From IMG/VR virus record IMGVR_UViG_3300027759_000104, positions 1 through 57,449 of that record: a DNA stretch of 57,449 nucleotides; one strand, 5' to 3'. This DNA comes from a virus. The notes beneath the pieces are model-generated. The model saw only the letters and a list, made by a program, of their open reading frames with translations, ran no database searches and was not told the origin of the DNA. Made by a program: the position numbers and the translations under genes. Positions 1,411 to 56,135 of this stretch are shown piece by piece. Positions within the stretch are counted from its first letter, which is position 1. Each line of letters opens with the position of its first letter.

Positions 1411-1411
1411 A

Positions 1412-1609: not shown

Positions 1610-1613
1610 AGTT

Positions 1614-2495: not shown

Positions 2496-2498
2496 ATT

Positions 2499-12362: not shown

Positions 12363-12371
12363 ATTATTATA

Positions 12372-13250
12372 TTACCAACATTGTATTATTACTAAACCGT
12401 CTCCACCTTTTCCTCCAATGCCACCAACACCTGTGGGTGAAGTACCACCTCCACCACCGCCACCACCACATCCAATATTTCCATCACCTCCTGCACCACC
12501 TGAAACTGGAGTTGTCCCTCCACCTCCACCTCCACTTCCTCCTGTAGAATAAAAAGGTGTTAATGAATAAACCCCTCTATTCCCTGTAGCTCCTGAAATA
12601 CCACCAGGGTTTGTAGACACAAACCCTGCGCCTGTAATTTCTCCACCATTTGTTGGTGTGGTACCTGCCGCGGCCATACCACCACCTCCCGCACCTGAGG
12701 TAATTGGTAGTCCAATAGTCGCTCCATATGTTACCGAAGTACCTGCGGCAGTTAATCCGTTACCACCTCCTTGTCCTCCAATAGCCATCCAAATACCTAA
12801 TGTCGAATATAATGCCGCGGCTACGTCAGTTGCACCTGCGGCCACTCCTCCTGTAGCACCAACTGCTCCTGACCCTCCAGTAGCAACTATTACTCTTGTA
12901 TATATGTCACCATTACCCGGAACAGGCATGTCAACAATTGTTGACCCTCCACTACCTCCATTTCCTAAACCAGCAGCACCTCCGTTACCACCCGTACCAA
13001 TATTTATAATTAATGAATCAGTTATAAACATTTCAGGAATAGTCAATCTTGTAATACTACCTGAACCACCTCCACCACCTCCTGACCTTGCGTTAGCAGA
13101 TGTATTAGTAGCCCCTCCACTACCTCCACCACCAGCACCAATAGCCGTGATAGATATCATGGTTATACCTTGTGGTTTTATCCAACTACCTGACTGATAA
13201 AACACTGCGGTCTTATAACTTGTGTCCGCTAAATCATATACAAAACTCAT
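12372..13250 (-). CDS. Gly-rich adhesin-like protein, copy 2
   Basis: 292 residues, identical in layout to its neighbours: MSFVYDLADTSYKTAVF, a WIKPQGITMISITAIGAGGGG segment leading into glycine-rich sequence, LTIPEMFITDSLIINIGTGG, many GG-rich turns and a final GLVIIQCW. The WIKP-G-T-M--ITAIGAGGGG entry is shared almost word for word with copy 1. The middle, where the Gly runs are interrupted by different residues, varies most between copies; that is what would be expected if loops there contact the host. It is probably part of a virion surface structure. No enzymatic motif seen. Confidence 0.65.
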   Translation of the reverse strand: MSFVYDLADTSYKTAVFYQSGSWIKPQGITMISITAIGAGGGGSGGATNTSANARSGGGGGGSGSITRLTIPEMFITDSLIINIGTGGNGGAAGLGNGGSGGSTIVDMPVPGNGDIYTRVIVATGGSGAVGATGGVAAGATDVAAALYSTLGIWMAIGGQGGGNGLTAAGTSVTYGATIGLPITSGAGGGGMAAAGTTPTNGGEITGAGFVSTNPGGISGATGNRGVYSLTPFYSTGGSGGGGGGTTPVSGGAGGDGNIGCGGGGGGGGTSPTGVGGIGGKGGDGLVIIQCW

Positions 13251-13262
13251 ATTTTATACTTA

Positions 13263-14159
13263 TTACCAACATGTTATTATTACCATACCGGGTCCACCAT
13301 TACCTCCATTACCTCCAGTTACTCCTGAACCACCACCACCTCCACCGCTGCCAGGTCCACCATCACCTCCTCTGCCCGCAGTACCTGTTGCAAAAGCACC
13401 TCCACCAGCACCTCCTGCACTATAAAATCCATTAAACGTATAAGTTCCTGTATCACCATTATTAGTTCCACCCGCGCTTCCTCCATTACCTGTAGGTATT
13501 TGCCCAATAGGATTGATATTACCACCACCAAATGAGGTATTAGCTGCACTTTTCCCACCTCCAGCGGCACCTCCTGATACTGTTGTAGCATTACCGTTAA
13601 TTGTTATTGTACCCCCTACGGCACCATTTGCACCTGCAGCACCCGCTTGACCTGCAATAACTGAAAACGTACCTAAAGCCTGATATACTGCATTAGTTTG
13701 AACACCTATAGCTCCGGCTCCACCACCCGCAGAAGCTGCTCCCGCAGCACCTACGTTACCTCCACCACCACCGTTAGCTTGTAACACATAGGTAGCCGCA
13801 ACCGCAGAACCTCTAGCAACTTCAACAAAAGTATTAGCTGCAGTATTACCTCCACCTGTAGTTCCTCCAGAACCACCAGCGGCAACAATTATTCTAAGTT
13901 GGTCGGGTAAAAAAATAGCGGGGATTGTTAATCTTGTAATAGCTCCTGAACCACCACCAGAACCACCTGAAGCCGCAGTACTCGCAGAAGAATTACCACC
14001 ACCTCCACCACCTCCAGCACCAATAGCAGTAATATGTACCATAGTAACACCTCTTGGTTTAATCCAATAATAAACCATGAAAGTAGTATTAGTACCTATA
14101 GACCCGGTATATACTTGATTTTTATATTGATTGTCAGCTAAATTGTAATAGTCAATCAT
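13263..14159 (-). CDS. Gly-rich adhesin-like protein, copy 1
   Basis: 298 residues, the most upstream of three tandem paralogues. It starts MIDYYNLADNQYKNQVYTGS and has YYWIKPRGVTMVHITAIGAG leading into a run of seven Gly. The LTIPAIFLPDQLRIIVAAGG segment matches LTIPEMFITDSLIINIGTGG of copy 2, and it ends GPGMVIITCW. Ala, Ser, Thr and Gly dominate the middle. The three copies presumably arose by tandem duplication and then diverged. They could form a hetero-complex or be alternative tip proteins; sequence alone does not decide. Confidence 0.65.
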   Translation of the reverse strand: MIDYYNLADNQYKNQVYTGSIGTNTTFMVYYWIKPRGVTMVHITAIGAGGGGGGGNSSASTAASGGSGGGSGAITRLTIPAIFLPDQLRIIVAAGGSGGTTGGGNTAANTFVEVARGSAVAATYVLQANGGGGGNVGAAGAASAGGGAGAIGVQTNAVYQALGTFSVIAGQAGAAGANGAVGGTITINGNATTVSGGAAGGGKSAANTSFGGGNINPIGQIPTGNGGSAGGTNNGDTGTYTFNGFYSAGGAGGGAFATGTAGRGGDGGPGSGGGGGGSGVTGGNGGNGGPGMVIITCW

Positions 14160-14806: not shown

Positions 14807-17800
14807 TTATATAAAGTTAAAATTGTTTGCGGTTGTGTAAACAATTCCTAATGTGAATGTTCCGCCCGCAGCTCCACTAGTTCCTGATGAACCTGAACCT
14901 GATGTTCCTGAAGAGCCAGTAATTCCAGAACTTCCTGATGAACCGCTAGTCCCTGATGAACCTGAACTACCCGATGAACCTGAACTACCACTTGTACCAG
15001 ATGAACCATTTGAACCTGAAGTACCCGAAGAACCCGATGAACCTGAAGTACCACTAGTTCCTGAGCTTCCAGATGTTCCTCTTGAACCTGTACTTCCACT
15101 TGAACCTGAAGTTCCTGAAGAACCACTTGAACCAGAACTTCCACTAGAACCTGAACTTCCACTAGAACCTGAAGTTCCTGATGAACCGCTAGTCCCTGAT
15201 GAACCAGAACTTCCGCTTGAACCTGAAGAACCCGATGTTCCTCTTGAACCAGTACTTCCACTACTACCACTTGAACCTGAAGTTCCTGAACTACCATTAG
15301 CACCTGATGCTCCATTAACAATTATGGTAATTGCACATAAATCACTAGTTGTAAGTGTTGTATCTCCAGCATTTGTATCTAAAGCTCCTGTAAAAAGATA
15401 ATCACTACCACTTACCGAAACGTTATTAAAGCTATAAATATCAATTTTGTTTGAACCATTTAAATTGAAAATCAAATATACAATCCCACTTTTTCCAACT
15501 AAATTGAAAAAATAATCACTAATATTTGCAGAATCCGCGGTTGTTACATTAAATTTCAAATCATAAACTGAAGAACCTGCACCATTATAACTAAATTGAC
15601 CTGAAGAAGGTGCTGTACCGGCTCCATTACCATAGATATACTGAAGACCTCCTTTGTTACCTTGACTTCCAGAAGTTCCTCTTGAACCAGTACTCCCACT
15701 TGAACCAGAACTACCACTAGAACCTGAACTTCCTGATGTTCCTGACGAACCTGATGTTCCTGACGAACCCGTACTTCCACTAGACCCTGAACTTCCTGAT
15801 GAGCCAGAACCTGAAGTACCTGATGAACCAGTAATACCACTTGAGCCAGATGTTCCACTTATACCATCTAATCCACTTGTTCCTGATGACCCACTTCCGC
15901 TAGAACCTGATGAACCAGCAGAACCTGAACCAGAAGTACCTGAGGAACCAGTAATCCCAGAACTTCCTGAAGAACCTGTTGACCCCGATGTTCCAGAACT
16001 ACCACTTGTACCCGAAGAACCTGTATTACCCGAACTTCCGCTTGAACCAGCACTACCTGATGAACCGCTAGTTCCAGAAGAACCTGTATTACCCGAACTT
16101 CCGCTTGAACCAGCACTACCTGATGAACCGCTAGTTCCAGAAGAACCTGTATTACCCGAACTTCCGCTACTTCCTGAAGAACCACTTGACCCTGAAGTAC
16201 CCGAAGAACCCGATGTTCCTGAACTTCCGCTTGAGCCAGAAGAACCACTTGTTCCACTACTTCCAGTAATACCCGATGAACCTGAACTACCACTTGAGCC
16301 AGCACTTCCGCTAGACCCAGAACTACCTGAAGAGCCAGAAGAACCTGATGTTCCACTTGACCCAGAAGTTCCCGATGAACCGCTATTACCCGAAGAACCT
16401 GAGCTTCCACTTGAACCAGAAGAACCTGATGTTCCTGAAGAACCTCCAGTACCACTTGAGCCAGTGCTTCCACTACTACCTGATGAACCCGAACTTCCTG
16501 ATGTACCTGAACTACCACTAGTTCCTGAAGAACCTGTAATACCAGATGAACCCGATGAACCTGTACTACCTGAACTTCCACTTGAGCCTGAAGACCCTGA
16601 TGTTCCACTACTACCCGATGTACCTGAGCTTCCACCAGACCCTGACGAGCCACTTGAGCCAGAAGAACCTGATGTTCCTGATGAACCGCTAGTACCCGAA
16701 GAGCCTGTATTTCCACTTGACCCTGAACTACCCGCACTTCCTGAAGAGCCACTTGTCCCTACTGAACCTGAAGTACCAGCACTACCGCTAGAACCACTAC
16801 TACCACTTGAACCAGAACTACCTGATGTACCAGAGCTACCATTAGAACCTGATGTTCCACTTGAACCTGATGAACCTGAACTACCACTTGAACCAGCACT
16901 TCCTGATGTTCCTGAACTTCCGTTAGAACCTGAAGTACCTGATGAACCACTTGAACCTGAGCTTCCCGATGTTCCTGAAGAACCGCTTGTTCCTCTTGAA
17001 CCAGTACTTCCTGAAGACCCTGAACTACCACTACTTCCACTAGAACCTGATGTTCCAACTGAACCAGAACTACCACTACTTCCACTTGAGCCAGATGAAC
17101 CGCTTGAGCCAGATGTTCCTGAACTACCATTAGCACCTGATGTACCAGAACTTCCAGCACTACCACTAGAACCTGAAGAACCACTAGACCCTGAACTTCC
17201 TGATGTTCCACTTGAACCTGAAGAACCTGTACTTCCTGAACTACCACTGGACCCTGATGTTCCTGAAGAACCTGAACTTCCAGTATTACCTGACGAACCT
17301 GAACTACCACTTGAACCCGATGTTCCTGAACTTCCACTCGTACCAGCACTTCCTGATGAACCTGAACTTCCACTAGTACCCGATGTTCCACTCGTTCCAG
17401 ATGTACCTACACTACCTGAAGACCCTGAACTACCACTTGTACCCGAAGAACCTGTATTACCTGAACTTCCACTTGAGCCAGCACTACCTGATGAACCGCT
17501 AGTTCCTGATGAACCTGATGTTCCTGAACTTCCAGTATTACCTGACGAACCTGAACTGCCCGAACTTCCGCTTGAACCTGATGTTCCAGAACTTCCGCTC
17601 GTACCAGATGAACCATTAAGACCATTAAATACCCATGATATTGTATATTCTGTACTGGATAAAGTTCCATTTGCAACAATATTACCTTTGAATATCCATC
17701 TATAAACACTACCGGTTACTGTAATTCCTGCAACATCCCATATACCAATAATATTGTTAGAACCTACTTGTGTGATTTGTAAATAAACAGTATTACCAAG

Positions 17801-20800
17801 AGCCTGTATGGTATCTATTCCAGAAAACCACGAAGCATAAGATGTGGAATTTATATCATCAATGTTTATATAGACATTAGTAATTGAAGATATTGTTGTA
17901 CTATCTGTCTGAAAGAATGTTGCTGCAGGTGTAGTACCTGTTCCATTATATCTCCATCTACCTGAGTTAGAAGAGTCGTTTCCTGATAATCCACTTGAGC
18001 CAGCAGTTCCTGAAGAACCACTAGACCCTGAACTTCCTGATGTTCCGCTGCTTCCATTAGCACCCGATGTACCACTACTTCCTGAGCTTCCAGTACTACC
18101 GCTAGAACCTGACGAACCACTTGTACCTGAAGAACCGTTAGCCCCTGATGTTCCTGAAGAACCTGCACTACCACTACTTCCTGATGAACCGCTAGAACCT
18201 GACGAACCAGAAGTACCTGATGTTCCACTTGAACCTGTACTTCCTGAAGAACCAGAACTTCCTGATGAACCGCTAGAACCTGATGTTCCAACAGAACCAG
18301 AACTACCACTACTTCCTGAAGAACCAGATGAGCCACTTGAACCAGACGTTCCTGAACTACCATTAGCACCACTTGTTCCTGACGAACCAGAACTACCACT
18401 TGAGCCAGTACTTCCTGAACTTCCAGCGCTTCCGCTAGAACCTGATGAGCCACTTGTACCTACAGAACCAGAACTTCCAGCACTACCGCTAGACCCTGAA
18501 CTTCCACTAGTACCTGAAGTACCATAACTTCCATTAGCACCTGATGTACCTGATGAACCAGATGACCCCGCACTTCCACTACTACCCGATGAACCAGAAC
18601 TTCCTGAAGAGCCACTTGTACCAGAACTTCCTGAAGAGCCACTTGTACCAGTAGAACCTGAACTTCCAGCACTACCGCTAGACCCTGAACTTCCACTACT
18701 TCCTGAAGTACCACTTGTACCTGAACTTCCGTTAGCTCCCGATGTACCTGATGAACCAGCACTTCCGCTAGAACCTGATGAACCAGAAGTACCTGATGTT
18801 CCACTTGTACCACTACTACCTGATGTTCCTGATGTTCCTCTTGAACCAGTAGAACCTGAACTTCCACTACTACCGCTTGAACCCGAACTTCCTGATGAAC
18901 CAGACGTTCCGGCAGAACCTGAACTTCCACTTGTACCAACACTTCCTGAACTACCTGATGAACCAGAACTTCCACTTGTACCAGTACTTCCTGAGCTTCC
19001 AGTACTACCACTAGAACCTGACGAACCACTTGAACCTGAAGTTCCTGATGAACCACTAGTACCTGACGTACCAGAGCTTCCAGCACTACCACTAGAACCT
19101 GACGAACCACTTGAACCTGAAGTTCCAGAACTTCCACTTGTTCCAACACTTCCTGAACTACCTGATGAACCGCTTGAACCTGATGTTCCAGAACTTCCAC
19201 TACTTCCTGAAGTACCAGAAGAACCAGATGAACCAGTACTTCCTGAGCTTCCGCTAGAACCTGATGTTCCAGAAGAACCAGCTGAACCTGAACTACCACT
19301 ACTACCACTTGAACCTGAAGAACCAGATGTTCCACTACTTCCATTAGCTCCTGATGTACCAGATGAACCGCTACTTCCTGAGCTTCCAGCACTTCCGCTA
19401 GAACCTGCTGAGCCACTTGAACCAGATGTTCCTGATGTACCAGATGTACCAGATGAACCAGATGTACCCACACTTCCTGATGAACCACTACTTCCACTTG
19501 AACCTGAAGAACCAGATGTTCCTGAAGTACCAGAACTTCCATTAGCACCTGATGTACCTGCTGAACCAGATGACCCTGAACTACCACTACTTCCCGATGA
19601 ACCTGATGTTCCTGATGTACCAGCACTTCCCGCAGAACCTGATGAACCAGAACTTCCTGAGCTTCCAGAACTACCACTTGTACCTACAGAACCTGAACTA
19701 CCTGATGTACCCGCACTTCCTGAGCTTCCAGTGCTACCACTAGAACCTGACGAACCGCTCGTACCTGATGTTCCAACACTTCCACTAGAACCTGAAGACC
19801 CACTTGAACCAGAAGTACCTGATGTACCTGAACTTCCGCTAGACCCTGACGAACCACTAGTCCCTGAACTACCAGTACTTCCACTAGACCCTGAACTTCC
19901 AGTACTTCCTGATGTTCCCGAAGAACCTGTGGAACCCGAACTTCCTGATGAACCAGAACTTCCTGAACTACCACTAGAACCTGATGTTCCAGATGAACCA
20001 CTTGTACCAACACTTCCACTAGTTCCAGAAGAACCTGAACTACCACTTGAACCAGAAGTTCCACTTGTTCCTACTGAACCTGAAGAACCTGAACTACCAC
20101 TTGAACCAGAAGTTCCACTTGTTCCTACTGAACCTGAAGAACCAGATGTACCAGTCGAACCTGAACTTCCAGCACTTCCACTAGAACCTGAAGAACCACT
20201 AGTACCTGATGAACCTACAGAACCTGATGTTCCACTACTTCCCGAAGAACCTGTGGAACCAGAACTTCCTGATGAACCACTACTACCGCTAGTACCTGAA
20301 CTACCCGTACTTCCACTAGAACCAGAACTACCACTAGAACCAGATGTTCCACTAGTCCCTACACTTCCTGAAGAACCCGCACTTCCGCTAGACCCACTAC
20401 TACCTGTAGAACCTGAACTTCCGCTTGTACCAGCTGAGCCAGAACTTCCTGACGAACCACTAGTCCCTGTACTACCACTAGAACCGCTACTACCTGACGT
20501 ACCACTTGTTCCTGATGAACCTGTTGAACCAGAACTTCCTGATGAACCTGTTGAACCAGAACTTCCTGATGAACCAGAACTTCCACTTGAGCCGGATGAA
20601 CCACTTGTACCTGATGAACCGCTAGTTCCAACACTTCCACTAGAACCTGAACTACCAGAACTTCCTGAAGACCCGCTAGTACCTGAAGAACCAGTTACTC
20701 CACTTGACCCTGAACTACCAGCAGACCCTGAACTACCAGATGAACCACTAGTTCCAGCACTTCCACTTGAACCTGAAGTACCCGCAGAACCAGAACTTCC

Positions 20801-23800
20801 TGAACTACCACTTGAGCCACTACTACCTGAAGAACCGCTTGAACCTGAAGTACCTGACGAACCTGATGTCCCAACAGAACCAGAACTTCCTGAGCTTCCA
20901 GCACTTCCGCTAGAACCTGACGAACCACTTGTCCCTGAACTACCACTTGAACCTGAACTACCAGAGCTTCCATTAGCACCTGATGTACCCGACGAACCAC
21001 TTGAACCAGATGACCCAGCACTTCCACTACTTCCTGAAGAACCAGAAGTTCCGCTTGTTCCTACACTACCACTAGACCCTGAAGAACCACTTGAACCACT
21101 TGAACCAGATGTTCCACTAGTCCCTGAACTACCACTAGTACCGTTTGTACCATCAACCCCACTTAATCCTGATGAACCTGAAGTACCACCAGAACCTGAA
21201 CTCCCACTACTACCCGATGAACCAGAACTTCCTGATGTACCGTTTGAACCAGATGTTCCTGAACTACCACTTGTTCCAGATGTTCCGCTAGTCCCTCTTG
21301 AACCTGTACTACCAGATGACCCTGAACTTCCACTAGAACCCGATGAACCGCTAGACCCTGAAGAACCACTTGTTCCGCTTGAGCCTGAGCTTCCTGAAGT
21401 ACCTGTACTACCCGATGAACCAGAACTTCCTGAACTACCGCTAGTACCAGATGTTCCTGAAGAACCACTAGTTCCACTTGAACCTGTACTACCTGAAGAA
21501 CCAGATGTTCCTGATGACCCTGAACTTCCAGATGAACCACTTGAACCTGAAGTTCCGCTAGTACCTGACGAACCACTTGAACCAGTACTACCGCTAGAAC
21601 CTGATGTTCCGCTCGTACCTACAGAACCTGACGTTCCTGAGCTTCCAGCGCTACCGCTAGAACCTGATGAACCACTTGTTCCAGATGTTCCGCTAGTTCC
21701 TGAAGAACCAGAATTACCAGAAGACCCACTAGTTCCTGAACTACCACTCGTTCCAGAACTTCCTGAAGAACCTGTACTACCACTTGAACCTGAGGAACCT
21801 GATGTTCCAGTACTTCCACTTGAACCTGAACTACCACTTGAGCCAGAAGAACCAGCACTACCTGATGTTCCTGTACTACCTGAAGAACCACTTGTTCCTG
21901 ATGAACCAGAAGTTCCTGTAGAACCTGATGAACCACTACTTCCACTTGACCCACTAGTTCCTGAAGAACCGCTTGTACCAACACTTCCAGATGACCCCGA
22001 AGTTCCAGATGTACCAACACTACCACTTGAGCCAGATGTACCACTTGTACCAACTGAACCAGAACTACCACTAGTTCCTGATGTACCTACACTACCGCTT
22101 GAACCTGACGTACCAGATGTTCCTGTACTACCTGAAGAACCTGAAGTTCCACTAGTTCCTGTAGAACCACTTGAGCCAGAGCTTCCTGTAGAACCACTTG
22201 AACCTGACGTACCAGTACTTCCCGAAGAACCTGATGTACCAACACTTCCACTAGACCCTGATGACCCAGAACTTCCTGAAGAACCGCTAGAACCTGATGT
22301 TCCAACACTTCCGCTAGAGCCTGAAGACCCACTTGAACCAGATGTTCCTACACTACCTGAACTTCCACTAGTCCCCGAAGTACCTACCGAACCACTTGAC
22401 CCTGATGTTCCTGATGAACCTGTACTACCACTAGAACCAGCACTTCCTGAAGAACCACTTGAACCTGTTGAGCCAGAAGAACCTGAGGTTCCTGAACTAC
22501 CACTTGAGCCACTAGTTCCAGTACTTCCTGAAGAACCTGATGTACCAACACTTCCTGACGAGCCAGATGTTCCTGAACTTCCAGTACTACCACTAGAACC
22601 CGAAGTACCACTTGTACCTGAAGAACCTGATGTCCCTGAGCTTCCAGCGCTTCCGCTAGAACCTGACGAACCACTAGTTCCTGAAGTACCCACACTACCT
22701 GATGAACCACTACTACCACTAGAACCTGTACTTCCTGATGTACCCGCAGTCCCTGATGTACCTACAGAACCCGAAGAACCTGAACTTCCTGATGTACCAC
22801 TACTACCACTTGAACCAGTACTACCGCTAGTGCCTGATGTTCCTGTACTTCCAGAACTACCAGATGAGCCAGCACTACCACTTGAACCTGATGAACCAGA
22901 AGTTCCACTACTACCTGACGAGCCTGTTGAGCCAGAGCTACCCGATGAACCCGATGTTCCTGATGTACCACTAGTACCTGAAGTTCCTACTGAACCAGAA
23001 CTACCTGAAGAACCAGAAGTTCCTACACTACCTGAAGAACCTGATGTTCCACTTGTACCTGTGCTTCCTGAACTACCACTTGAACCAGATATCCCTGATG
23101 AACCAGAACTTCCTGAAGAACCGCTCGTACCTGATGTACCAACGCTTCCAGAACTTCCTGATGTTCCACTACTTCCCGAAGAACCAGAACTTCCACTCGT
23201 ACCGCTGGTACCTGATGTACCCACAGAACCTGAACTACCACTTGTTCCTGATGTACCTGTACTTCCTGATGTTCCTGAACTACCTGATGAACCAGTACTT
23301 CCCGAAGAACCACTTGTTCCAGAAGTACCAACACTTCCACTAGAACCTGATGAGCCAGAACTTCCCGATGAACCTGATGTACCTACACTACCCGATGTAC
23401 CACTTGTACCTGTTGAACCGCTAGACCCTGATGTTCCCGTACTTCCAGATGAACCAGATGAACCAGATGAACCAGTACTTCCGCTTGAGCCAGACGTTCC
23501 TGATGAACCGCTAGAACCTGAAGACCCAGATGAACCACTACTTCCTGATGTTCCAGAACTTCCGTTAACCCCTGAAGTACCAGCACTTCCTGATGAGCCA
23601 GAACTACCACTACTTCCGCTATACCCTGATGTTCCACTTGAACCACTACTTCCTGAAGTACCAACACTACCCGAAGAACCTGAACTACCACTACTCCCCG
23701 AACTACCTGTCGTACCTGAAGAACCAGATGTTCCACTTGTACCTGTGCTTCCTGAACTACCACTTGAACCATAACTTCCTGAAGAACCGCTCGTACCTGA

Positions 23801-26800
23801 TGTACCAACGCTTCCACTAGAACCTGATGTACCGCTAGTTCCTGAAGTACCTACACTACCCGAACTACCGCTAGTTCCCACACTTCCTGATGAACCAGAA
23901 GTTCCTGATGTACCGCTAGTCCCACTTGTTCCCACACTTCCTGAAGACCCTGATGTACCACTAGTACCTACAGAGCCAGAACTACCTGATGTTCCACTTG
24001 TTCCTGATGAACCTGAAGAACCAGATGTTCCAACACTACCTGATGAACCCGATGTTCCACTCGTACCAACACTTCCTGAAGAACCAGACGTTCCTGATGT
24101 TCCAACACTTCCTGATGTTCCTGAGGTTCCGGTGCTTCCACTTGAACCTGACGAACCTCCAGTTCCACTTGACCCTGAACTACCTGATGTACCACTTGTG
24201 CCTGTACTTCCTGAAGAACCACTAGTTCCAGATGTACCAACGCTTCCAGAACTTCCTGAAGAACCTGAACTACCACTTGAGCCAGAAGAACCAGCACTAC
24301 CTGATGTACCCGTACTTCCAGATGAACCACTTGTTCCTGAAGTACCTACACTACCCGATGAACCAGATGTACCAGTACTTCCCGAAGAACCAGAAGTTCC
24401 ACTTGAACCAGAACTTCCGCTCGTACCGCTAGTACCTGATGTACCCACAGAACCTGAACTACCACTTGTTCCTGATGTTCCAGTACTTCCTGAAGAACCA
24501 CTTGTACCAACACTTCCTGAACTACCTGATGTACCAGTACTTCCGCTAGAACCACTTGTTCCAACACTTCCTGAAGAACCACTACTTCCACTTGAACCTG
24601 TAGACCCACTAGTTCCTGAACTTCCAGCACTACCGCTAGAACCTGAAGAACCACTGCTTCCCGATGAACCAGAACTACCTGATGTACCCGATGTTCCTAC
24701 GCTACCACTAGTACCTGAAGTTCCTACTGAACCAGAACTACCTGAAGTTCCACTAGTTCCACTAGTTCCTGATGTACCAACACTTCCTGAAGAGCCAGAT
24801 GTTCCTGTACTTCCCGAACTACCTGACGTACCAGTACTACCACTTGAACCAGAAGAACCTGAACTGCCACTTGTTCCAGATGTTCCACTATTTCCTGAGC
24901 TTCCAGCACTTCCGCTAGAACCTGACGTACCAGTAGAGCCACTTGAACCAGATGTTCCTACACTTCCTGAACTACCACTAGTACCTGAAGTACCTACACT
25001 TCCTGAACTACCACTTGAACCAGAACTACCTGACGTACCACTTGTTCCTGATGTTCCTACACTACCCGATGAGCCACTAGTTCCTGATGTTCCACTATTT
25101 CCTGAACTACCACTTGAACCAGATGTTCCGCTAGTCCCTACACTACCTGACGAACCGCTAGTACCAGATGTTCCAACACTACCTGAAGAACCTGATGTCC
25201 CACTATTTCCTGAGCTTCCAGCACTTCCGCTAGAACCTGACGTACCAGTAGAACCACTTGAACCTGAAGTTCCACTAGTACCTGAAGTACCTGAACTTCC
25301 ACTAATACCACTAGAACCCGATGAACCTGATACTCCGCTAGAACCACTTGAACCTGAACTACCTGATGTTCCACTAGTTCCAACACTTCCTGAAGAACCG
25401 CTAGTACCAACTGAACCAGACGAACCAGAACTACCACTAGTTCCCGATGTTCCTACTGAACCAGAACTACCACTAGTACCCGATGTTCCTACTGAACCAG
25501 AACTTCCTGATGTACCTGAAGTACCTACACTTCCTGAACTTCCACTAGTTCCCGATGTTCCGCTAGTACCTGAAGAACCTGAAGTTCCACTTGAACCCGA
25601 TGTACCTGTACTTCCTGAGCTTCCAGTACTACCACTAGAACCTGAAGAACCACTACTTCCTGATGTACCAACACTTCCCGAACTACCACTTGAGCCTGAA
25701 GACCCAGTTGAACCCGATGTTCCACTTGTACCTGAACTTCCACTATTTCCTGACGAACCGCTAGAACCTGATGTTCCGCTAGTACCCGAAGTTCCTGATG
25801 TACCAACACTACCAGATGAACCTGAACTACCTGATGTTCCTGAGGTACCAGTAGTACCACTTGAACCAGATGTTCCTACACTTCCTGAGCTTCCACTAGT
25901 ACCTGAAGTACCTACACTTCCTGAGGAACCAGATGTTCCGCTTGTACCTACAGAACCACTTGTTCCTGAAGAACCTGACGTGCCAGTAGAACCACTTGAA
26001 CCTGTGCTACCGCTAGAACCTGACGTTCCTGAGCTTCCAGCGCTACCGCTAGAACCTGATGAACCACTTGTTCCAGATGTTCCGCTAGTACCTGAACTAC
26101 CTGTTGAACCTGAACTTCCACTTGAGCCAGATGAACCTGAAGTACCACTTGTTCCTACACTTCCACTTGTACCGGCAGAACCAGAACTTCCCGATGAACC
26201 ACTTGTTCCTGATGTGCCAGAAGTTCCAACACTTCCACTAGAACCAGATGTTCCGCTACTTCCTGAACTACCTGAAGACCCACTTGAACCTGAAGTTCCT
26301 GTTGACCCTGAACTTCCCGATGAACCACTTGTTCCTACTGAACCTGATGTTCCGCTTGTACCTGAACTTCCTGATGAACCCGAACTACCTGAAGACCCAC
26401 TTGAACCTGATGTTCCTGAAGTACCTGTTGAGCCAGATGTCCCTGAAGAACCACTTGTTCCTACACTACCACTACTTCCTGAACTTCCACTTGAACCAGT
26501 ACTACCTGATGAACCCGATGTTCCTGAAGTACCAACAGAACCTGATGAACCAGATGTTCCAACACTACCTGATGAACCGCTTGTACCAACTGAACCAGAT
26601 GACCCAGAACTACCGCTAGTACCAGATGTTCCTGAGCTCCCACTTGTACCAGAAGACCCTGTACTTCCGCTACTACCACTTGAACCAGTGCTACCTGATG
26701 AACCACTAGTACCTACACTACCTGATGAACCACTAGTACCTACACTACCTGATGAACCTGAAGTACCACTTGAGCCAGTACTACCTGAAGAACCAGATGA

Positions 26801-29107
26801 ACCAGAACTACCGCTAGTTCCTACACTACCCGATGTACCTGCACTTCCTGAAGAACCAGTACTTCCACTTGAACCAGAAGACCCGCTTGAGCCAGATGTT
26901 CCTGAACTACCACTAGAACCTGATGAACCCGAACTTCCTGAAGAACCAGATGTTCCCGAACTACCACTAGTCCCTGAAGAACCATTAACACCTGAACTAC
27001 CTGAAGAACCTGAACTACCACTTGTACCTGATGTTCCTACACTTCCTGAAGAACCTGAACTTCCACTTGAACCACTTGAGCCAGACGAACCTGAACTACC
27101 ACTTGAGCCAGATGTACCTGATGAACCACTCGTTCCACTTGAACCTGTATTTCCACTTGAGCCAGACGAACCTGAACTACCACTTGTACCTGATGTTCCT
27201 ACACTTCCTGAAGAACCTGAACTTCCACTTGAACCACTTGTTCCCGAAGTTCCAACACTACCGCTAGAACCTGATGAACCTGAACTTCCTGATGAACCTG
27301 ATGTACCAGAACTACCACTTGTGCCCGAAGACCCTGTACTTCCGCTACTACCACTTGAACCAGAACTACCTGATGAACCCGATGTCCCTGATGAACCCGA
27401 TGTTCCTGATGAACCTGTCAATCCTGAACTTCCACTTGAGCCACTACTACCTGATGAACCCGATGTTCCTGTAGAACCCGATGTTCCTGTAGAACCCGAT
27501 GTTCCTGTAGAACCTGAACTACCACTTGTACCTGATGTTCCTGATGTTCCGCTAGTTCCTGATGAACCAGTACTACCTGAAGAACCTGAACTACCAGATG
27601 AACCTGAAGAACCTGAACTACCAGATGAACCTGATGTGCCAGAACTACCACTCGTACCTGAAGACCCAGTTATACCACTACTACCTGACGAACCTGTTGA
27701 ACCAGAGCTACCACTTGAGCCAGATGTACCTGATGAACCAGAACTACCTGAACTACCACTTGAACCAGATGTTCCAACACTACCTGATGAACCACTACTT
27801 CCCGCAGAACCTGATGAACCCGACGTTCCGCTTGTTCCACTACTACCACTAGTACCAGTACTACCTGATGTACCCGATGAACCACTTGAACCTGAACTTC
27901 CCGATGAACCACTTGAACCTGAACTACCTGATGTACCTGAAGAACCACTTGTTCCTGATGTACCACTAGTCCCAACACTACCACTTGAACCTGAAGTTCC
28001 TCCAGTTCCTGATGTTCCGCTTGTACCTGAACTTCCTGATGACCCTGAAGTTCCTGATGTACCTGCACTTCCAGATGAACCAGACGTACCAACACTTCCT
28101 GAAGAACCACTTGAACCTGATGTACCACTAGTCCCAACACTACCACTTGAACCTGAAGTTCCAGTACTTCCTGATGTACCTGAAGTTCCTGATGTTCCAC
28201 CTGTACCTGAACTTCCTGATGACCCTGAAGTTCCTGATGTACCTACACTTCCAGATGAACCACTAGTACCATTTGTACCGTCAACACCACTTAATCCCGA
28301 ACTACCACTTGTACCTACACTTCCTGATGAACCACTAGTTCCTGTACTACCCGATGTTCCACTTGTTCCGCTTGTTCCACTACTACCTGACGAACCATTA
28401 CTACCTGAAGTTCCCGAAGACCCACTTGAACCTGAACTACCTGATGAACCACTTGAACCTGATGTTCCAGAACTACCATTAGAACCAGATGCCGTAATAC
28501 CTGTTACAGAAATAACAGTTCCATCACTATTATATAATTCTAATGTACTTGTACCTGAAAAATAAGTACCACCCGTTAATTCAGTACCTTGTGCAAAAAC
28601 TCTCCAACGAGCATTTGCTCTTGTTACGCCACTAACACCTTCAATAGTTGAACCTGTCCAAGCATTAATAAATGCCTGACCTTCAGGTGTATTGTTCTTT
28701 ACAATAGTTTCGTAAGATAATTGAGTTACAGAATTAGCACTTACCGCCGCATCCCATAAATCATTGTAATTGTCTATTTGATATTGATATGCTGTTTCAG
28801 TTTCATTAACCCAAACAATCATACCCAATCTTCTTCTACCCGAAGAGAAATTGTCAGAATTTAAAGTTAAATATGTTGGAGAAAATGTACCGTTACCAAT
28901 GTTAATATTAATAGGTATATTATTAACACTTAATTGTTGTTGTCCTTGCCCACTAAATATTAAACCTAAATTAGTAAGGTATGCCGCCTCTTGCCATCCA
29001 CCAACATTTAAAACATTAAAATTGGTTCCGTATGGGCTTGTTCTCGCTACACTGAAAGGTCCTGTAATTTGGGACGCACTTATTGGATTTTGATACGGTA
29101 TTGCCAT
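14807..29107 (-). CDS. Giant collagen-like (Gly-X-Y) fibre protein
   Basis: A 4766-residue protein. Residues 1 to about 205 form an N-terminal globular domain (MAIPYQNPISASQITGPFS...; SSGRRRLGM near residue 90) homologous to the N-terminus of the fibre at 36918-37907. It is probably the virion anchor. About 4300 residues follow as uninterrupted Gly-X-Y triplets, almost all GSS, GTS, GSV, GST or GSA, in three blocks (about 205-3707, 3831-4484, 4600-4745). Two homologous globular inserts of about 120 residues separate the blocks, and the chain closes with a short tail, TFTLGIVYTTANNFNFI. The triplet blocks contain essentially no Pro, Cys or aromatics. Gly at every third position is the collagen signature, and phages use collagen-like stalks in tail fibres. 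The length is exceptional. Exact repeat number depends on correct assembly of low-complexity DNA. Confidence 0.85.
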   Translation of the reverse strand: MAIPYQNPISASQITGPFSVARTSPYGTNFNVLNVGGWQEAAYLTNLGLIFSGQGQQQLSVNNIPININIGNGTFSPTYLTLNSDNFSSGRRRLGMIVWVNETETAYQYQIDNYNDLWDAAVSANSVTQLSYETIVKNNTPEGQAFINAWTGSTIEGVSGVTRANARWRVFAQGTELTGGTYFSGTSTLELYNSDGTVISVTGITASGSNGSSGTSGSSGSSGSSGSSGSSGTSGSNGSSGSSGTSGTSGTSGSTGTSGSSGSVGTSGSSGLSGVDGTNGTSGSSGSVGTSGTSGSSGSSGTGGTSGTSGTSGSTGTSGSSGSVGTSGTSGSSGSSGSVGTSGSSGSAGTSGTSGSSGSSGTSGTSGTGGTSGSSGSVGTSGTSGTSGSSGTSGSSGSSGSSGSSGSSGSSGTSGSTGTSGSSGTSGTSGSSGSAGSSGSSGSVGTSGSSGSSGSSGSSGTSGSSGSSGSTGSSGSSGITGSSGTSGSSGTSGSSGSSGSSGSSGSSGSSGSTGSSGTSGTSGTSGTSGSSGSTGTSGSTGTSGSTGTSGSSGSSGSSGSSGLTGSSGTSGSSGTSGSSGSSGSSGSSGSTGSSGTSGSSGTSGSSGSSGSSGSSGSVGTSGTSGSSGSSGSSGSVGTSGTSGSSGSSGSSGNTGSSGTSGSSGTSGSSGSSGSSGSSGSSGSSGSSGSVGTSGTSGSSGSSGSSGVNGSSGTSGSSGTSGSSGSSGSSGSSGSSGTSGSSGSSGSSGSTGSSGSAGTSGSVGTSGSSGSSGSSGSTGSSGTSGSSGSVGTSGSSGSVGTSGSSGSTGSSGSSGSTGSSGTSGSSGTSGTSGSSGSSGSVGTSGSSGSVGTSGSSGSVGTSGTSGSSGSTGSSGSSGSSGSVGTSGSSGTSGSTGTSGTSGSSGSSGSSGSSGSSGTSGTSGSVGTSGSSGSSGSTGTSGSSGSSGSSGSSGTSGSSGSVGTSGTSGTSGSSGSSGSAGTSGSVGTSGTSGSSGSSGSSGSTGSSGTSGTSGTSGSSGSSGSAGSSGTSGSSGSTGSSGSTGTSGSSGTSGSVGTSGTSGSSGSVGTSGTSGSSGSVGTSGSSGTTGTSGTSGSSGSSGSVGTSGTSGTSGTSGSSGSSGNSGSSGTSGTSGSTGSSGSSGSSGSVGTSGSSGSSGSSGSTGSSGSTGTSGSSGTSGSSGTSGTSGTSGSSGSVGTSGTSGSSGSVGTSGTSGSSGSVGTSGTSGSSGSSGSVGTSGSSGSVGTSGTSGSSGSSGSSGVSGSSGSSGISGSSGTSGTSGTSGSSGSTGTSGSSGSAGSSGNSGTSGSSGSVGTSGTSGSSGSVGTSGTSGSSGSSGNSGTSGTSGSSGSVGTSGTSGTSGSSGSSGSSGSVGTSGTSGSSGSVGTSGSSGSTGTSGSSGSAGSSGNSGTSGTSGSSGSSGSSGSTGTSGSSGSTGTSGSSGSVGTSGTSGTSGTSGSSGSVGTSGTSGSVGTSGTSGSSGSSGSSGSSGSSGSAGSSGTSGSTGSSGSSGSSGSVGTSGSSGSTGTSGSSGSVGTSGSSGSTGTSGTSGSSGSVGTSGTSGTSGSSGSSGTSGSSGSTGTSGSSGSVGTSGTSGSSGSTGTSGSAGSSGSSGSSGSSGSSGSVGTSGTSGSSGSTGTSGTSGSSGSSGTGGSSGSSGSTGTSGTSGSVGTSGTSGSSGSVGTSGTSGSSGSVGTSGSSGSSGTSGTSGSSGSVGTSGTSGSSGSVGTSGTSGTSGTSGSSGSVGTSGSSGSVGTSGTSGTSGSSGSVGTSGTSGSSGSYGSSGSSGSTGTSGTSGSSGTTGSSGSSGSSGSSGSVGTSGSSGSSGTSGYSGSSGSSGSSGSAGTSGVNGSSGTSGSSGSSGSSGSSGSSGTSGSSGSTGSSGSSGSSGSTGTSGSSGSTGTSGTSGSVGTSGSSGSSGSSGSSGSVGTSGTSGSSGSTGSSGSSGTSGSTGTSGTSGSSGSVGTSGTSGTSGSSGSSGSSGTSGSSGSVGTSGTSGSSGSSGSSGISGSSGSSGSTGTSGTSGSSGSVGTSGSSGSSGSVGTSGTSGTSGTSGSSGSSGSTGSSGSSGTSGSSGSSGSAGSSGSSGSTGTSGTSGSTGSSGSSGTSGSSGSSGSVGTSGTAGTSGSTGSSGSSGSSGSVGTSGTSGSSGSSGSAGSSGTSGSSGTSGTSGSSGSTGSSGTSGSSGSVGTSGSSGSTGTSGSSGSSGTSGSSGSTGSSGSSGSAGSSGSTGSSGTSGSSGSVGTSGTSGSSGSVGTSGSSGSSGSSGSVGTSGSSGSSGSSGSSGSSGSVGTSGSSGSTGTSGSSGSTGSSGSSGSTGTSGTSGSSGSTGTSGTSGSSGSVGTSGTSGSSGSVGTSGTSGSSGSVGTSGTSGSSGSVGTSGSSGTSGSSGSSGSSGSTGTSGSSGTSGSSGSTGTSGSAGSSGSSGSSGSSGSTGTSGSSGSSGSTGSSGSSGTSGSSGTSGSSGNSGSSGTSGTSGTSGSSGSSGSAGSSGTSGSVGTSGTSGSSGSTGSSGSSGTSGTSGSSGSSGSSGSSGTSGSSGSTGSSGTSGSSGTSGTSGSSGSSGSSGSTGTSGSSGSSGTSGSSGSSGSSGSSGSSGSSGSTGSRGTSGTSGTSGSSGTSGSNGTSGSSGSSGSSGSSGSGGTSGSSGLSGVDGTNGTSGSSGTSGTSGSSGSSGSSGSSGSVGTSGTSGSSGSSGSAGSSGSSGSSGTSGANGSSGSSGSSGSSGTSGSSGSSGSAGSSGSSGSVGTSGSSGTSGSSGSSGSSGSSGSSGSSGSAGTSGSSGSAGTSGSSGSSGSAGSSGSSGVTGSSGTSGSSGSSGSSGSSGSVGTSGSSGTSGSSGSSGSSGSSGSSGSTGSSGSSGSTGSSGTSGTSGSSGSSGSTGTSGSSGSSGSAGTSGSSGSTGSSGSSGSAGSSGSVGTSGTSGSSGSSGSSGSTGSSGTSGSSGSSGSSGSTGSSGSSGTSGSVGSSGTSGSSGSSGSAGSSGSTGTSGSSGSVGTSGTSGSSGSSGSSGSVGTSGTSGSSGSSGSSGTSGSVGTSGSSGTSGSSGSSGSSGSSGSSGSTGSSGTSGSTGSSGSSGSTGSSGTSGSSGSSGSSGTSGTSGSSGSSGSSGSVGTSGTSGSSGSSGSTGSSGSAGTSGSSGSVGTSGSSGSSGSSGSSGSAGSAGTSGTSGSSGSSGSSGSSGSAGTSGANGSSGTSGTSGSSGSSGSSGSSGSVGTSGSSGTSGTSGTSGSSGSAGSSGSAGSSGSSGSSGTSGANGSSGTSGSSGSSGSSGSSGSAGSSGTSGSSGSSGSTGSSGSSGTSGSSGSSGTSGSSGSSGSSGSVGTSGSSGTSGSSGSSGSSGSAGSSGTSGTSGSSGTSGSSGSSGSSGSTGSSGSTGTSGSSGSSGSSGSVGTSGSSGSAGTSGSSGSSGSSGSSGSSGSTGSRGTSGTSGSSGTSGTSGTSGSSGSSGSAGSSGTSGANGSSGTSGTSGSSGSSGSSGSAGSSGSTGTSGSSGSSGTSGSSGSSGSSGSSGSAGSSGSSGTSGANGSYGTSGTSGSSGSSGSAGSSGSVGTSGSSGSSGSAGSSGSTGSSGSSGSSGTSGANGSSGTSGSSGSSGSSGSSGSSGSVGTSGSSGSSGSSGSSGSTGSSGTSGTSGSSGSSGSSGSSGSAGSSGTSGANGSSGTSGSSGSSGSTGSSGSSGTSGANGSSGTSGSSGSSGSSGTAGSSGLSGNDSSNSGRWRYNGTGTTPAATFFQTDSTTISSITNVYINIDDINSTSYASWFSGIDTIQALGNTVYLQITQVGSNNIIGIWDVAGITVTGSVYRWIFKGNIVANGTLSSTEYTISWVFNGLNGSSGTSGSSGTSGSSGSSGSSGSSGNTGSSGTSGSSGTSGSSGSAGSSGSSGNTGSSGTSGSSGSSGSVGTSGTSGTSGTSGSSGSSGSAGTSGSSGTSGSSGSSGSSGNTGSSGSSGTSGSSGSSGSTGSSGSSGTSGSSGSSGSSGSSGSAGSSGTSGANGSSGTSGSSGSSGSSGSSGSSGSVGTSGSSGSSGSSGSSGSTGSRGTSGSSGTSGSSGSSGSSGTSGSNGSSGTSGSAGSSGSSGSSGSSGTSGSNGSSGTSGSSGSSGSSGSSGSAGTSGSVGTSGSSGSAGSSGSSGNTGSSGTSGSSGTSGSSGSSGSSGSGGSSGTSGSSGTSGSSGSSGSSGSTGSSGSSGITGSSGTSGSSGTSGSSGSSGSSGSTGSSGTGGSSGTSGSSGSSGSSGSSGNSGSSGTSGSSGTSGSSGSSGSSGSSGSAGSSGSSGSSGITGSSGTSGSSGSSGSSGTSGSSGTSGSSGSSGSSGSSGNTGSSGTSGSSGSAGSSGSSGNTGSSGTSGSSGSAGSSGSSGNTGSSGTSGSSGTSGSTGSSGSSGITGSSGTSGSGSAGSSGSSGSGSSGTSGLDGISGTSGSSGITGSSGTSGSGSSGSSGSSGSTGSSGTSGSSGTSGSSGSSGSSGSSGSTGSRGTSGSQGNKGGLQYIYGNGAGTAPSSGQFSYNGAGSSVYDLKFNVTTADSANISDYFFNLVGKSGIVYLIFNLNGSNKIDIYSFNNVSVSGSDYLFTGALDTNAGDTTLTTSDLCAITIIVNGASGANGSSGTSGSSGSSGSTGSRGTSGSSGSSGSSGSSGTSGSSGTSGSSGSSGSSGSSGSSGSSGTSGSSGSTGSRGTSGSSGTSGTSGSSGSSGTSGSNGSSGTSGSSGSSGSSGSSGTSGSSGSSGITGSSGTSGSGSSGTSGAAGGTFTLGIVYTTANNFNFI
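14870..15310 (-). repeat. Gly-X-Y triplet block 3
   Basis: About 146 codons of Gly-Ser/Thr-Ser triplets near the C-terminus, including GSTGSRGTSG motifs with rare Arg. Approximate borders. Ends just before the C-terminal tail. Confidence 0.8.
15655..17615 (-). repeat. Gly-X-Y triplet block 2
   Basis: About 650 codons of Gly-X-Y triplets between the two globular inserts. Around 15840-15930 the triplet phase is broken several times (GSGSAG, GSGSSG, GLDGISG), suggesting kinks or flexible points in the stalk. Borders approximate. Confidence 0.8.
17985..28492 (-). repeat. Gly-X-Y triplet block 1 (about 10.5 kb)
   Basis: About 3500 codons of Gly-X-Y triplets. At DNA level it is a 9-bp-like quasi-repeat, but Gly and Ser codons are freely interchanged (GGT/GGA, TCA/TCT/AGT), so neighbouring units are rarely identical. 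Two rare LSGVDGTNGTSG segments, at about 28270-28300 and 21140-21170, are nearly identical in DNA and may mark an internal duplication. The opposite strand stays open over kilobases as a by-product. Confidence 0.85.
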
Positions 29108-30744: not shown

Positions 30745-32415
30745 TCAACATTCTTTTCTTAAATTACTATCATAATGTTCAAATCTATCATGTTCGGTAG
30801 GAGTGAGTAATAAAATACCTGGTTTTAACTTACCTTTAATTGTGTTTTGGAAGTTGTGAGACATTAAAGTTTGCTCATATGGGTGTTGATATTTTGTCTC
30901 CAAATAACATTTATAACTCCCACTTTTTGAAAGGATTATAGGCCAGTTACACAAATAAATTTCACCTGAAGCATATGGTAAACCCTTATGTGTTTTTATC
31001 TCGTTAAATTTTGTTTTTGGAGCGTTCGGGTCTAAACCATGTTGAGGTAATCTTGGGTTTTTTGGCCAATGTTGTTCTCTGAAATTTTGTGGAACATTAT
31101 ACCAACTCCACTGAGTACTATTATCACCATAAAACTCTGAAAAATTTAATTTTAAAAAATCAAAGTTTTCTTTGTTAACTATCTCTAAACTTTTTTGATA
31201 TAGATTACTCACATATCTGTTGAACCCATTTCTACATACTTCATTTTTTTTTGAATAAAAAAACATATCATCTTCAAAGAATAACATATAGTCCAACCCT
31301 GTTTCATCAAAGTGTTCAGCAGTCCATTGTCTTCCACCTGTAATGCCTATGTTATCTTTTTTAATATGTTCAAAGTCATATTCTTTACAAAGTCTTAAGT
31401 ATTCTTCAGTTGTTGATAAATCTGTAGAGTTATCCAATAAAAATTTCTTTGGTTTGTCCAAGAAATCCCTATCATATTCAATCATAGATTTAATTAATGT
31501 TTCAAATTGTTTTGGTGAATTGAATGTTATTACATACAACGCAACTTTATCTATATCTAAATCATTTTGAATTTTAACAAACTCTGTCTTTTTAACTAAA
31601 ACATCATCTTTTAAATCCTCAAAGAATTTCCCAAATAAACCATTATATTCAATTTCAAAATAATTTATGTATTCACTTAACTTATAAACCATTATTGAAA
31701 ATATTGACTCTTCCGTTCCCATGTACCCACTTGATAGTGTATCATTCAATAGGTTATAGTATTCACCATTCATCTGTGATATGGTTTCTTTCGGCCCACC
31801 AAAGAACCCACCACGAGCAACTTTCTTTACATCATCTTCAGCCCACTGATTAATCTTTGGGTATGAAAATCCATGTATCTCATTACTTGCATCGTATGGA
31901 AAACAAACAAATGTAAACTTATCAATATACTTACTTAAATTATTTAAAACCTTATCATGTGTAAAATATCCAGGATGAACAGTATTTGTAAGTCCAGCGT
32001 CAATCCAAAATAAAAACTCTGAATTAAACTTATCAAAAATCCTTGCATCATTTAATATAAACATTTTTGACATAACAAGTGGATTGTATATTTCCAATCT
32101 ACCTTGTGTTGATTCTTTTAACCACCCTGATTGATTATACCATTCAGGATTATTTCTAATTTCTTGTATTTTATTGTAAAAGTCATTTTCAACAAACCAA
32201 CTCTTATCTCTTAAAATAAATTGGGTATTACTTTGGTCTCTTCTTTCCCAAACAAATTCCTCCAATTCCTTTTCACCAAAAATTATTAAGTTTTCTTCAA
32301 CTTTTAATAGTTGTTCAAATTTTTCTAAATAATGTGAAAAAGAACGAGACCAACCTTCTTCAAGATTTTCCCTTCCAATATTCCACAATCCTGTAACTAA
32401 TGTAATATTACTCAT
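30745..32415 (-). CDS. Bifunctional glycosyltransferase: HtrL/YibB-like domain fused to a GT-A domain
   Basis: 556 residues. The N-terminal half starts ITLVTGLWNIGRENLEEGW and has NLIIFGE, FLFWIDAG (134-141) and GGFFGG. These match the HtrL/YibB (WlaTC) family, putative glycosyltransferases of surface-polysaccharide clusters. From about residue 288 a second domain begins (VALYVITFNSPKQFETLIKS) with EDD at 381-383 (FFEDDMFF), a likely metal/nucleotide-sugar site of a GT-A-fold transferase. It is the last gene of a five-gene glycosyltransferase operon and overlaps its upstream neighbour by 4 nt. Donor and acceptor cannot be read from sequence. The adjacent giant Ser/Thr-rich fibre is a plausible acceptor, which is inference. 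Confidence 0.7.
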   Translation of the reverse strand: MSNITLVTGLWNIGRENLEEGWSRSFSHYLEKFEQLLKVEENLIIFGEKELEEFVWERRDQSNTQFILRDKSWFVENDFYNKIQEIRNNPEWYNQSGWLKESTQGRLEIYNPLVMSKMFILNDARIFDKFNSEFLFWIDAGLTNTVHPGYFTHDKVLNNLSKYIDKFTFVCFPYDASNEIHGFSYPKINQWAEDDVKKVARGGFFGGPKETISQMNGEYYNLLNDTLSSGYMGTEESIFSIMVYKLSEYINYFEIEYNGLFGKFFEDLKDDVLVKKTEFVKIQNDLDIDKVALYVITFNSPKQFETLIKSMIEYDRDFLDKPKKFLLDNSTDLSTTEEYLRLCKEYDFEHIKKDNIGITGGRQWTAEHFDETGLDYMLFFEDDMFFYSKKNEVCRNGFNRYVSNLYQKSLEIVNKENFDFLKLNFSEFYGDNSTQWSWYNVPQNFREQHWPKNPRLPQHGLDPNAPKTKFNEIKTHKGLPYASGEIYLCNWPIILSKSGSYKCYLETKYQHPYEQTLMSHNFQNTIKGKLKPGILLLTPTEHDRFEHYDSNLRKEC

Positions 32416-32975
32416 TCCGTATGTCTAACTTTATAGATTATGTAATCAACAAATTCACTTTCAAACACTTTACCTATCTCTTCATAAAAAATAACATCTC
32501 CAAAAACATCTTCTTGGAACATCGGTAAATTATGTGTATTTGGAATCACTCCCATACATTTACCTACATTACCTCTTGTAAAATCTTTTAATCTCCAATT
32601 AATATCACCTAACCAATTGTGTTTGAATATGTATAATTTGTTTTTATCTTTAATAGTTTCTTTGATTACTTTAAATGCTTCTTCAGTGTATCTATCATCA
32701 TCATCGGCAAACATTATAAAATCACCTTCTAATGAATTAATGTTTTCATTAATTAATGGATGTCCGTATTTCCACTTTTGTTCGCCTTGATTTAATATGT
32801 GATTAACTTTGAATTTAAACTCATATCTTGATAATACTTCTGAAACAAATTCGTGATTAATATCAGATATTATTGTAAAAATATCAGTTGTATCTAATTG
32901 GTCTTTGAATGACTCAATCAATCTTGGTAGGGTTTCCCTTCCAATAGAAGTACAAACAATATTAAGACTAAACAT
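32412..32975 (-). CDS. Glycosyltransferase, GT2-like (GT-A fold)
   Basis: 187 residues. It starts MFSLNIVCTSIGRETLPRLI, the nucleotide-binding first strand and helix of family 2 transferases. It carries an unusually acidic metal site, DDDD at 91-94 in FIMFADDDDRYTEEA. At this length it is little more than the GT-A core, with a short C-terminal acceptor region. It overlaps the neighbouring genes on both sides (4 and 8 nt), so it is translated with them. Likely one sugar-transfer step of a short glycan. Confidence 0.72.
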   Translation of the reverse strand: MFSLNIVCTSIGRETLPRLIESFKDQLDTTDIFTIISDINHEFVSEVLSRYEFKFKVNHILNQGEQKWKYGHPLINENINSLEGDFIMFADDDDRYTEEAFKVIKETIKDKNKLYIFKHNWLGDINWRLKDFTRGNVGKCMGVIPNTHNLPMFQEDVFGDVIFYEEIGKVFESEFVDYIIYKVRHTE

Positions 32976-34516: not shown

Positions 34517-34519
34517 ATC

Positions 34520-56134: not shown

Positions 56135-56135
56135 G

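Follow-up and report, generated by a model that had tools for sequence, protein, structure and literature searches.

A 4,766-residue, proline-free Gly-X-Y protein as a candidate fibre stalk in a phage tail-gene field

The window analysed here is a stretch of viral DNA of 57,449 nucleotides (positions 1 to 57,449 of IMG/VR record IMGVR_UViG_3300027759_000104); the genes and protein parts discussed below are collected in Table 1. Translation of its open reading frames showed a single ATG-to-stop frame of 4,766 aa at 14807-29107, which with its 14.3 kb makes up 5.9% of the near-identical 240.8-kb record G001. The initial annotation had described one frame at this position, built of Pro-free triplets and lying among tail genes, and these points were confirmed; to them we add the minus strand, two globular inserts and short register breaks of the G-X-G type, which are confined to the C-terminal arrays. 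The Gly-X-Y runs cover residues 208-3711, the longest unbroken one, and 3829-4395, 4406-4435, 4435-4488 and 4599-4739. Insert 1 was matched by tblastn in 14 loci, with 33-43% identity in the six rows given; it has no PHROG match, and its best Pfam match has E 0.2. No trimerisation or chaperone module was recognised in the protein with Pfam or PHROG.

Table 1. Genes and protein parts of the window
Feature	Position	Strand	Remarks
Three Gly-rich tail-type genes (PF21722)	11484-14159	minus	Profile matches; downstream of the array gene
C-terminal tail, residues 4740-4766, and stop codon	14807-14890	minus	Translation
Third Gly-X-Y array, residues 4599-4739	14891-15313	minus	Triplet register
Globular insert 2, residues 4489-4598	15314-15643	minus	Weak similarity to insert 1 (26%, E 0.002)
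Second Gly-X-Y array block, residues 3829-4488	15644-17623	minus	Short G-X-G register breaks
Globular insert 1, residues 3712-3828	17624-17974	minus	Recurs in relatives
Main Gly-X-Y array, residues 208-3711	17975-28486	minus	1,168 consecutive triplets
N-terminal anchor domain, residues 1-207	28487-29107	minus	Aligned in 38 sequences
Partner gene, 411 aa	29137-30372	minus	Thr/Pro/Ser linker and conserved C-terminal domain of ~210 aa; immediately upstream of the array gene
HtrL_YibB domain gene	30745-32415	minus	Also a weak glucosyltransferase match; profile search
Weak GT2 match	32412-32975	minus	E 4.4e-4, below cut-off
Two short cassette genes	32968-33822 and 33806-34516	minus	No Pfam/PHROG family; glycosyltransferase-like by eye only; in 12-13 of 82 loci
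Glycosyltransferase, PF11397 / phrog_24687	34520-35764	minus	E 1.1e-68 / E 1.9e-168
Paralogous short fibre	36918-37907	minus	Same anchor (46% identity) and a C-terminal domain with weak BclA_C similarity (E 1.2e-4, below Pfam cut-off); array absent
Partner paralogue preceding the short fibre	37917-38921	minus	Homology to partner
Baseplate J-like and gp25-like baseplate wedge genes	54299-56594	minus	Profile matches

The arrays hold 1,432 triplets in total, of which GSS (712) and GTS (418) make up 79%, followed by GST (88), GSV (87) and GSA (47). Pro is absent from every one of them, charged residues number 11 (6 Arg, 1 Lys and 4 Asp), and Ser and Thr together account for 59% of residues 208-4739. 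The PF01391 profile gave 102 matches to the frame, 101 of them over the cut-off, so the Gly-X-Y pattern is not due to chance; as Gly recurs at every third residue without interruption over a long region and the profile is matched over its cut-off, the protein carries a collagen repeat in the sense of PF01391. These matches, like those to collagens in a PDB sequence search with part of the array, rest on the Gly periodicity. At the collagen rise of ~0.286 nm per residue, the ~4,300 array residues would span ~1.2 micrometres fully extended, and the earlier estimate of this length is arithmetically sound. Mutual information between X and Y positions showed neighbouring positions to be strongly coupled; since block duplication would yield the same coupling, it was left aside as structural evidence. 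In the main array (17975-28486), GTS comes next after GSV in 83 of 84 cases, a coupling of Y with the following X. On the plus strand, the array is overlapped by antisense open reading frames at 19731-23774 (1,347 aa) and 24132-28565 (1,477 aa), which are by-products of the repeat and a trap for gene callers.

The gp25-like, baseplate-J-like (both at 54-57 kb) and PF21722 tail-type genes place the array gene in a tail and baseplate region, and the two baseplate genes suggest that the phage is tailed and probably contractile. The terminase of a relative, G009, has as its nearest isolates Flavobacterium phage immuto and Microcystis phage Mel-JY01, at 28-29%; that of G001 gave a weak profile match only (E 2.3e-6). 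SprB repeats, over the cut-off at 38946-41108 and below it at 9071-11155, are a hint of Bacteroidota. Two further genes of the window may be mentioned: an 816-aa gene at 3696-6146, which runs on the plus strand against its neighbours and matches lactonase/YncE-type beta-propellers, and a 1,863-aa gene at 48656-54247, between the baseplate and fibre genes, which belongs to no Pfam/PHROG family.

The anchor had initially been called 'fibre-type', which proved to be a guess, as Pfam gave no match to the domain, the best PHROG match (E 0.0018) lies outside the limit of E 0.001, and no PDB entry matches convincingly in sequence or in fold (best Z 3.4). Its AF2 model was mediocre (pLDDT 69.7), and a BFVD search returned one clear homologue, an uncultured phage protein. 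Neither the window anchor nor a distant anchor (L231) nor the partner domain had a match in 50,697 phage records. In IMG/VR the anchor has 324 relatives, and the best 80 of these contributed 57 new loci which, together with 25 from a first search, gave 82 distinct anchor loci. In 76 of the 82 the anchor leads into an array of 10 triplets or more, and the six array-less loci (L215-L220) are copies of one 556-aa protein. The gene directly upstream of the anchor gene is in all 82 loci a partner gene, a homologue of that of the window in 81 and a paralogous partner in L033. The AF2 model of the partner has a pLDDT of 93.4 and no convincing PDB fold (best Z 4.6); a simple pattern found Thr/Pro/Ser linkers in 23 of 37 partner frames. 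Among GTDB genomes the anchor has one match (L268, JABJFP010000316.1), on a 3.2-kb contig labelled as a Euryarchaeota MAG, which is probably phage DNA in the wrong bin; the anchor homologue there is followed by GGTYxxGT-type repeats in place of a Gly-X-Y array.

A scan for the array pattern alone found at least 120 stretches; among the matches listed, 80 loci were examined and all contained an array, in 63 without Pro. None of the examined array frames over 1,500 aa is longer than the protein of the window, which is thus the longest found in this analysis of a family of probable fibre stalks; pieces of the window itself were left out of this comparison, many of the frames are cut, and the longest rows are near-copies. 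One record (G050, locus L409) carries two long arrays in neighbouring genes, of 2,042 codons and of at least 2,495 codons in the stretch examined.

For the residue pattern we used 40 representatives, picked by a crude ungapped identity cut (95%), 39 of which have an array (9,324 triplets, or 18,648 X/Y positions). At these positions Pro occurs twice, Ala 164 times and Lys plus Arg 14 times. Thr occupies X in 4,932 cases and Y in 351, with X preferred in 39 of 39 representatives, while Asp is found in Y (977 vs 28 in X), Ile in X (335 vs 0) and Glu in X (82 vs 1). The Thr, Asp and Ile biases indicate a registered structure in which X and Y are unlike. The 6,995 TCN and 5,283 ACN codons of these representatives lie one first-position change from CCN and equally one from GCN; with both equally near by mutation, 2 Pro against 164 Ala indicates that Pro is selected against. 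Outside the anchor family Pro is rare, though present, at 134 of 36,570 X/Y positions in 76 pattern-selected, GSS/GTS-dominated loci, 88 of them in two loci (L296 and L302).

Comparison with close relatives showed how the array evolves. Against L012, whose anchor is 98% identical, the alignment is confident for 277 of the 1,168 triplets (the array of the 1,998-aa relative L016 could not be paired); in these triplets the Gly codons differ by 12 synonymous changes and no replacement, the X codons by 13 synonymous changes and 3 replacements, and the Y codons by 6 and 4. Over 203 triplets paired with L013 the corresponding numbers are 5 and 0 for Gly, 4 and 2 for X, and 2 and 2 for Y. Unconstrained Gly codons are expected to show about two replacements per synonymous change, so that under equal rates the L012 result would have a probability of (1/3)^12, or ~2e-6. 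Looser blastn blocks against L012, covering 1,894 codons with paralogous pairings included, hold 131 synonymous changes and 38 replacements, none of them to or from Gly. These results show that Gly at every third residue is under strict purifying selection, and they bear out the earlier suggestion of selection on the product.

The length of the array changes faster than its sequence, through gain and loss of blocks. Between the arrays of the window and L012 we inferred 50 block indels (end gaps counted, the alignment being uncertain in places), and between L012 and L013, the latter ended by its contig, 276 unit pairs without substitution are accompanied by 25 indels. The frame of the window holds 1,635 repeated 20-mers, against 479-551 in three codon-shuffled nulls, an excess that fits traces of past block duplication.

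Proline is regarded as central to collagen stability. In studied phage collagens, according to PMC3368898, Pro fills about half of the X positions, Lys/Arg are found in Y and Thr prefers Y; in bacterial collagens, according to PMC8968730, Pro takes up 19-31% of X and Thr 32-48% of Y. The family under study has neither the Pro-rich X and charged-residue stabilisation of the EPclP and Scl type (0 Pro in the 1,432 triplets of the window, 2 in 18,648 X/Y positions of the representatives) nor the Thr preference for Y. The array is thus collagen-like by register, without the composition of characterised collagens, and since its Pro, Thr and Lys/Arg pattern is opposite to that of bacterial and studied phage collagens, the stability of a triple helix is doubtful; a collagen triple helix is plausible for the array.

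The EPclP side-tail fibres of E. coli prophages (PMC3368898) resemble the protein of the window in having a Gly-X-Y domain between globular domains, and the EPclP fibre is trimeric; however, their longest Col domain measures 322 aa, and they have Pro in X, Lys/Arg in Y and Thr mostly in Y, whereas the array protein of the window has ~4,300 aa of triplets with no Pro, Thr in X and Lys/Arg nearly absent. The statement of the initial annotation that phage collagens usually span tens to a few hundred residues therefore holds for the studied ones but not for this class, in which hundreds of triplets are common. Scl and BclA also have long Gly-X-Y regions, and BclA is glycosylated, but they are bacterial surface or spore proteins with the Pro and Thr usage given above (PMC8968730). 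In the open-licence literature, preprints excluded, no description of a Pro-free Gly-X-Y class was found. What is new here is a Pro-free, Thr-in-X variant of the phage collagen-like fibre, which is of wider interest than one long gene.

Peptidase_S74, YadA-head-like repeats and collagen triplets are modules of trimeric fibres. Among 52 array frames with a closed 3' end, 6 have an S74-like motif, none of them one of the six closed anchor-type proteins in this set; Peptidase_S74 itself was recognised in 6 of 10 array-protein C-termini tested, those six having been picked for the motif or by eye. The array of G028 (L407) passes into collagen triplets that contain Pro and into Peptidase_S74, and an array of G050 into YadA-head-like NIAxG repeats recognised by eye, as also, by motif, in L298, L336 and L344. 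The fibre context proposed at the outset thus stands for part of the class, a minority whose arrays end in Peptidase_S74. A trimeric reading is the favoured one, given that elsewhere in the class some arrays run on into Pro-containing collagen, Peptidase_S74 or YadA-like repeats.

Taking these observations together, we read the 4,766-aa protein, with a probability of about 0.5, as the stalk of a trimeric tail fibre on a large-genome tailed phage, probably folded as a Pro-free, collagen-like three-chain helix; from the sequence we infer the location on the virion, the trimer, the helix type and the reason for the exclusion of Pro. The gene product would be the stalk in a tail or baseplate fibre of great length, and its N-terminal anchor, common to the second, shorter fibre of the phage, would attach it to the virion, aided by the partner protein. 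The 1,432 triplets of three parallel chains may wind into a Ser/Thr-rich helix without Pro, reaching at most ~1.2 micrometres if fully extended; that 1,168 triplets are unbroken argues against a chain folding back on itself. Pro would be avoided perhaps so that a very long chain can zip up without slow proline cis-trans isomerisation, and the length of the array could be tuned fast by in-frame gain and loss of triplet blocks.

Alternatively, the array could be intrinsically disordered and serve as a Ser/Thr brush or tether that the neighbouring glycosyltransferases load heavily with O-glycans. The high Ser and Thr content, the Thr/Pro/Ser linkers of many partner frames and the position of the glycosyltransferase cassette (30745-35764) between the two fibre modules are all in keeping with such a tether. 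However, a disordered chain needs no Gly register, yet the Gly codons are strictly conserved, and Pro, which is common in mucin-like linkers, is nearly absent from the family.

The distribution of the PF11397 gene, a family that we take to include polypeptide GlcNAc-transferases, also speaks against the brush. This gene was found in 13 of the 82 anchor loci (flanks up to 10 kb) and in 3 of 14 whole records searched, of 25 available. Among the 13 nearest anchor loci, 12 carry the cassette genes at 95-100% identity; the 13th, L020, is without two of them and matches a third at 28%. In the flanks (up to 10 kb) of the other 69 loci the cassette was not found. Conversely, arrays of at least 10 triplets lie in the flanks of 12 of 80 PF11397 loci, and in 11 of these 12 the glycosyltransferase is at least 95% identical to that of the window. 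Among contigs of at least 100 kb, and without those of the window's clade (three in the first set, two in the second), arrays were found in 6 of 16 selected for PF11397 and exceeded the cut-off in 2 of 8 selected for ribonucleotide reductase, where one more contig had a single match below it; PF11397 occurs in 5 of these 8, both array-bearing ones included, and PF11397-negative contigs are too few for an association test. One record, G035, is in both contig sets.

Glycosyltransferase genes thus do not generally travel with the repeat, and a general O-glycosylation link through an adjacent PF11397 gene is not supported by these co-occurrences (12 of 80, 13 of 82 and 3 of 14). The neighbouring glycosyltransferases are clade-local. 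Of the glycan stabilisation suggested in the initial annotation, what stands is that glycosyltransferase and glycosyltransferase-like genes adjoin the array in this clade, where such stabilisation is possible; as a general feature it is not supported. We consider the brush rather unlikely. In PMC7029224, glycosyltransferases in host-recognition regions of other aquatic phages are read as acting in host surface modification.

Another reading is that the array packs into bundles of short polyglycine-II/PPII helices, as in the snow flea antifreeze protein or the S16 gp38 adhesin. Such bundles, Gly-rich and Pro-poor like the array, exist also at a T-even phage fibre tip, as reported in PMC8409303, and the exclusion of Pro would fit helices with hydrogen-bond-donating X/Y amides. 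According to that paper, the bundles stack between six and 13 short helices in layers, with ten in the phage tip domain. A bundle of this kind would need a turn every few triplets, whereas the triplet register of residues 208-3711 is unbroken. Some arrays of the class, moreover, lie in chaperone-tipped fibres, and we regard the bundle as improbable.

The array frames often leave their contigs. The anchor-array frame runs off the sequence in 62 of the 82 loci, two of which (L009 and L010) are cut by the 10-kb flank; the other 60 end with the contig, 58 of them mid-array, and 14 array frames are closed. Downstream of the anchor the sequence stops before 3 kb in 56 of 82 loci, and upstream of it in 0 of 82, while in control searches the corresponding numbers were 1 and 16 of 80 for the glycosyltransferase gene, and 19 and 34 of 80 for the ribonucleotide reductase gene, which is often on short contigs. 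In G028 (294,914 b) the array is found at both contig ends on the same strand; the two ends look like two parts of one anchor-array gene, which suggests a circular genome open only at the array. Arrays at contig ends offer a reason why the genomes of such phages do not close.

To judge the length of the frame itself, we compared it with other assemblies. Direct k-mers repeated within the frame number 3 at k=90 and 0 at k=100; with the codons scrambled and repeats gone at 100 bases, ordinary short reads are able to resolve the array. Two IMG/VR records with different metagenome identifiers, G001 (240,759 b) and G002 (62,214 b), have an identical frame length of 4,772 codons. In the overlap compared, 3 and 5 of their bases deviate from the window, without an indel; 1 and 4 of these differences fall within the gene, where four are synonymous and one replaces T by N. 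Similarly, three assemblies (L012, L014 and L015) share an identical 2,435-aa version, and four (L016, L017, L019 and L021) have identical copies of the 1,998-aa version in the 10.6 kb compared. The fifth assembly of the latter, L018, has a one-base frame break near 13854, ~480 bp from its contig end, which is absent from the four other assemblies of the same phage and is best read as an end-of-contig error. Although array frames so often end mid-array and that of L018 is shifted, an artefact of short-read assembly is highly improbable, chimeras included, and assembly expansion very unlikely as the origin of the frame, this reading being already largely refuted by the lack of any exact direct repeat of 100 bp and by the equal lengths across assemblies, whose samples may not be independent sites.

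Returning to the fibre stalk, we tentatively suggest, as an idea that is less likely than not, that these phages follow a second 'collagen code'. It would be embodied in a widespread Ser/Thr class of triple helix, with Thr in X, Asp in Y and Pro excluded, which would build micrometre fibres by omitting slow proline isomerisation and whose abundance and length would be hidden because the array ends most of the sampled contigs of this family. As the family keeps Gly strictly and excludes Pro over thousands of residues, what a collagen-like helix needs becomes testable. If the stalk is extended, large-genome phages would carry fibres far longer than the virion, with consequences for host finding.

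Among six phage records checked, the isolate Microcystis phage Mel-JY01 (PP395634.1) was the sole array carrier. Like the window it has an array of the GSS/GTS/GTD class, in a 1,016-codon frame (L287, bases 2-3049); unlike the window, it shows no anchor in the stretch read, contains some GPP and many GTR triplets and is much shorter. The frame is annotated only in its C-terminal part (2519-3052), and hypothetical proteins are annotated on the opposite strand over the array.
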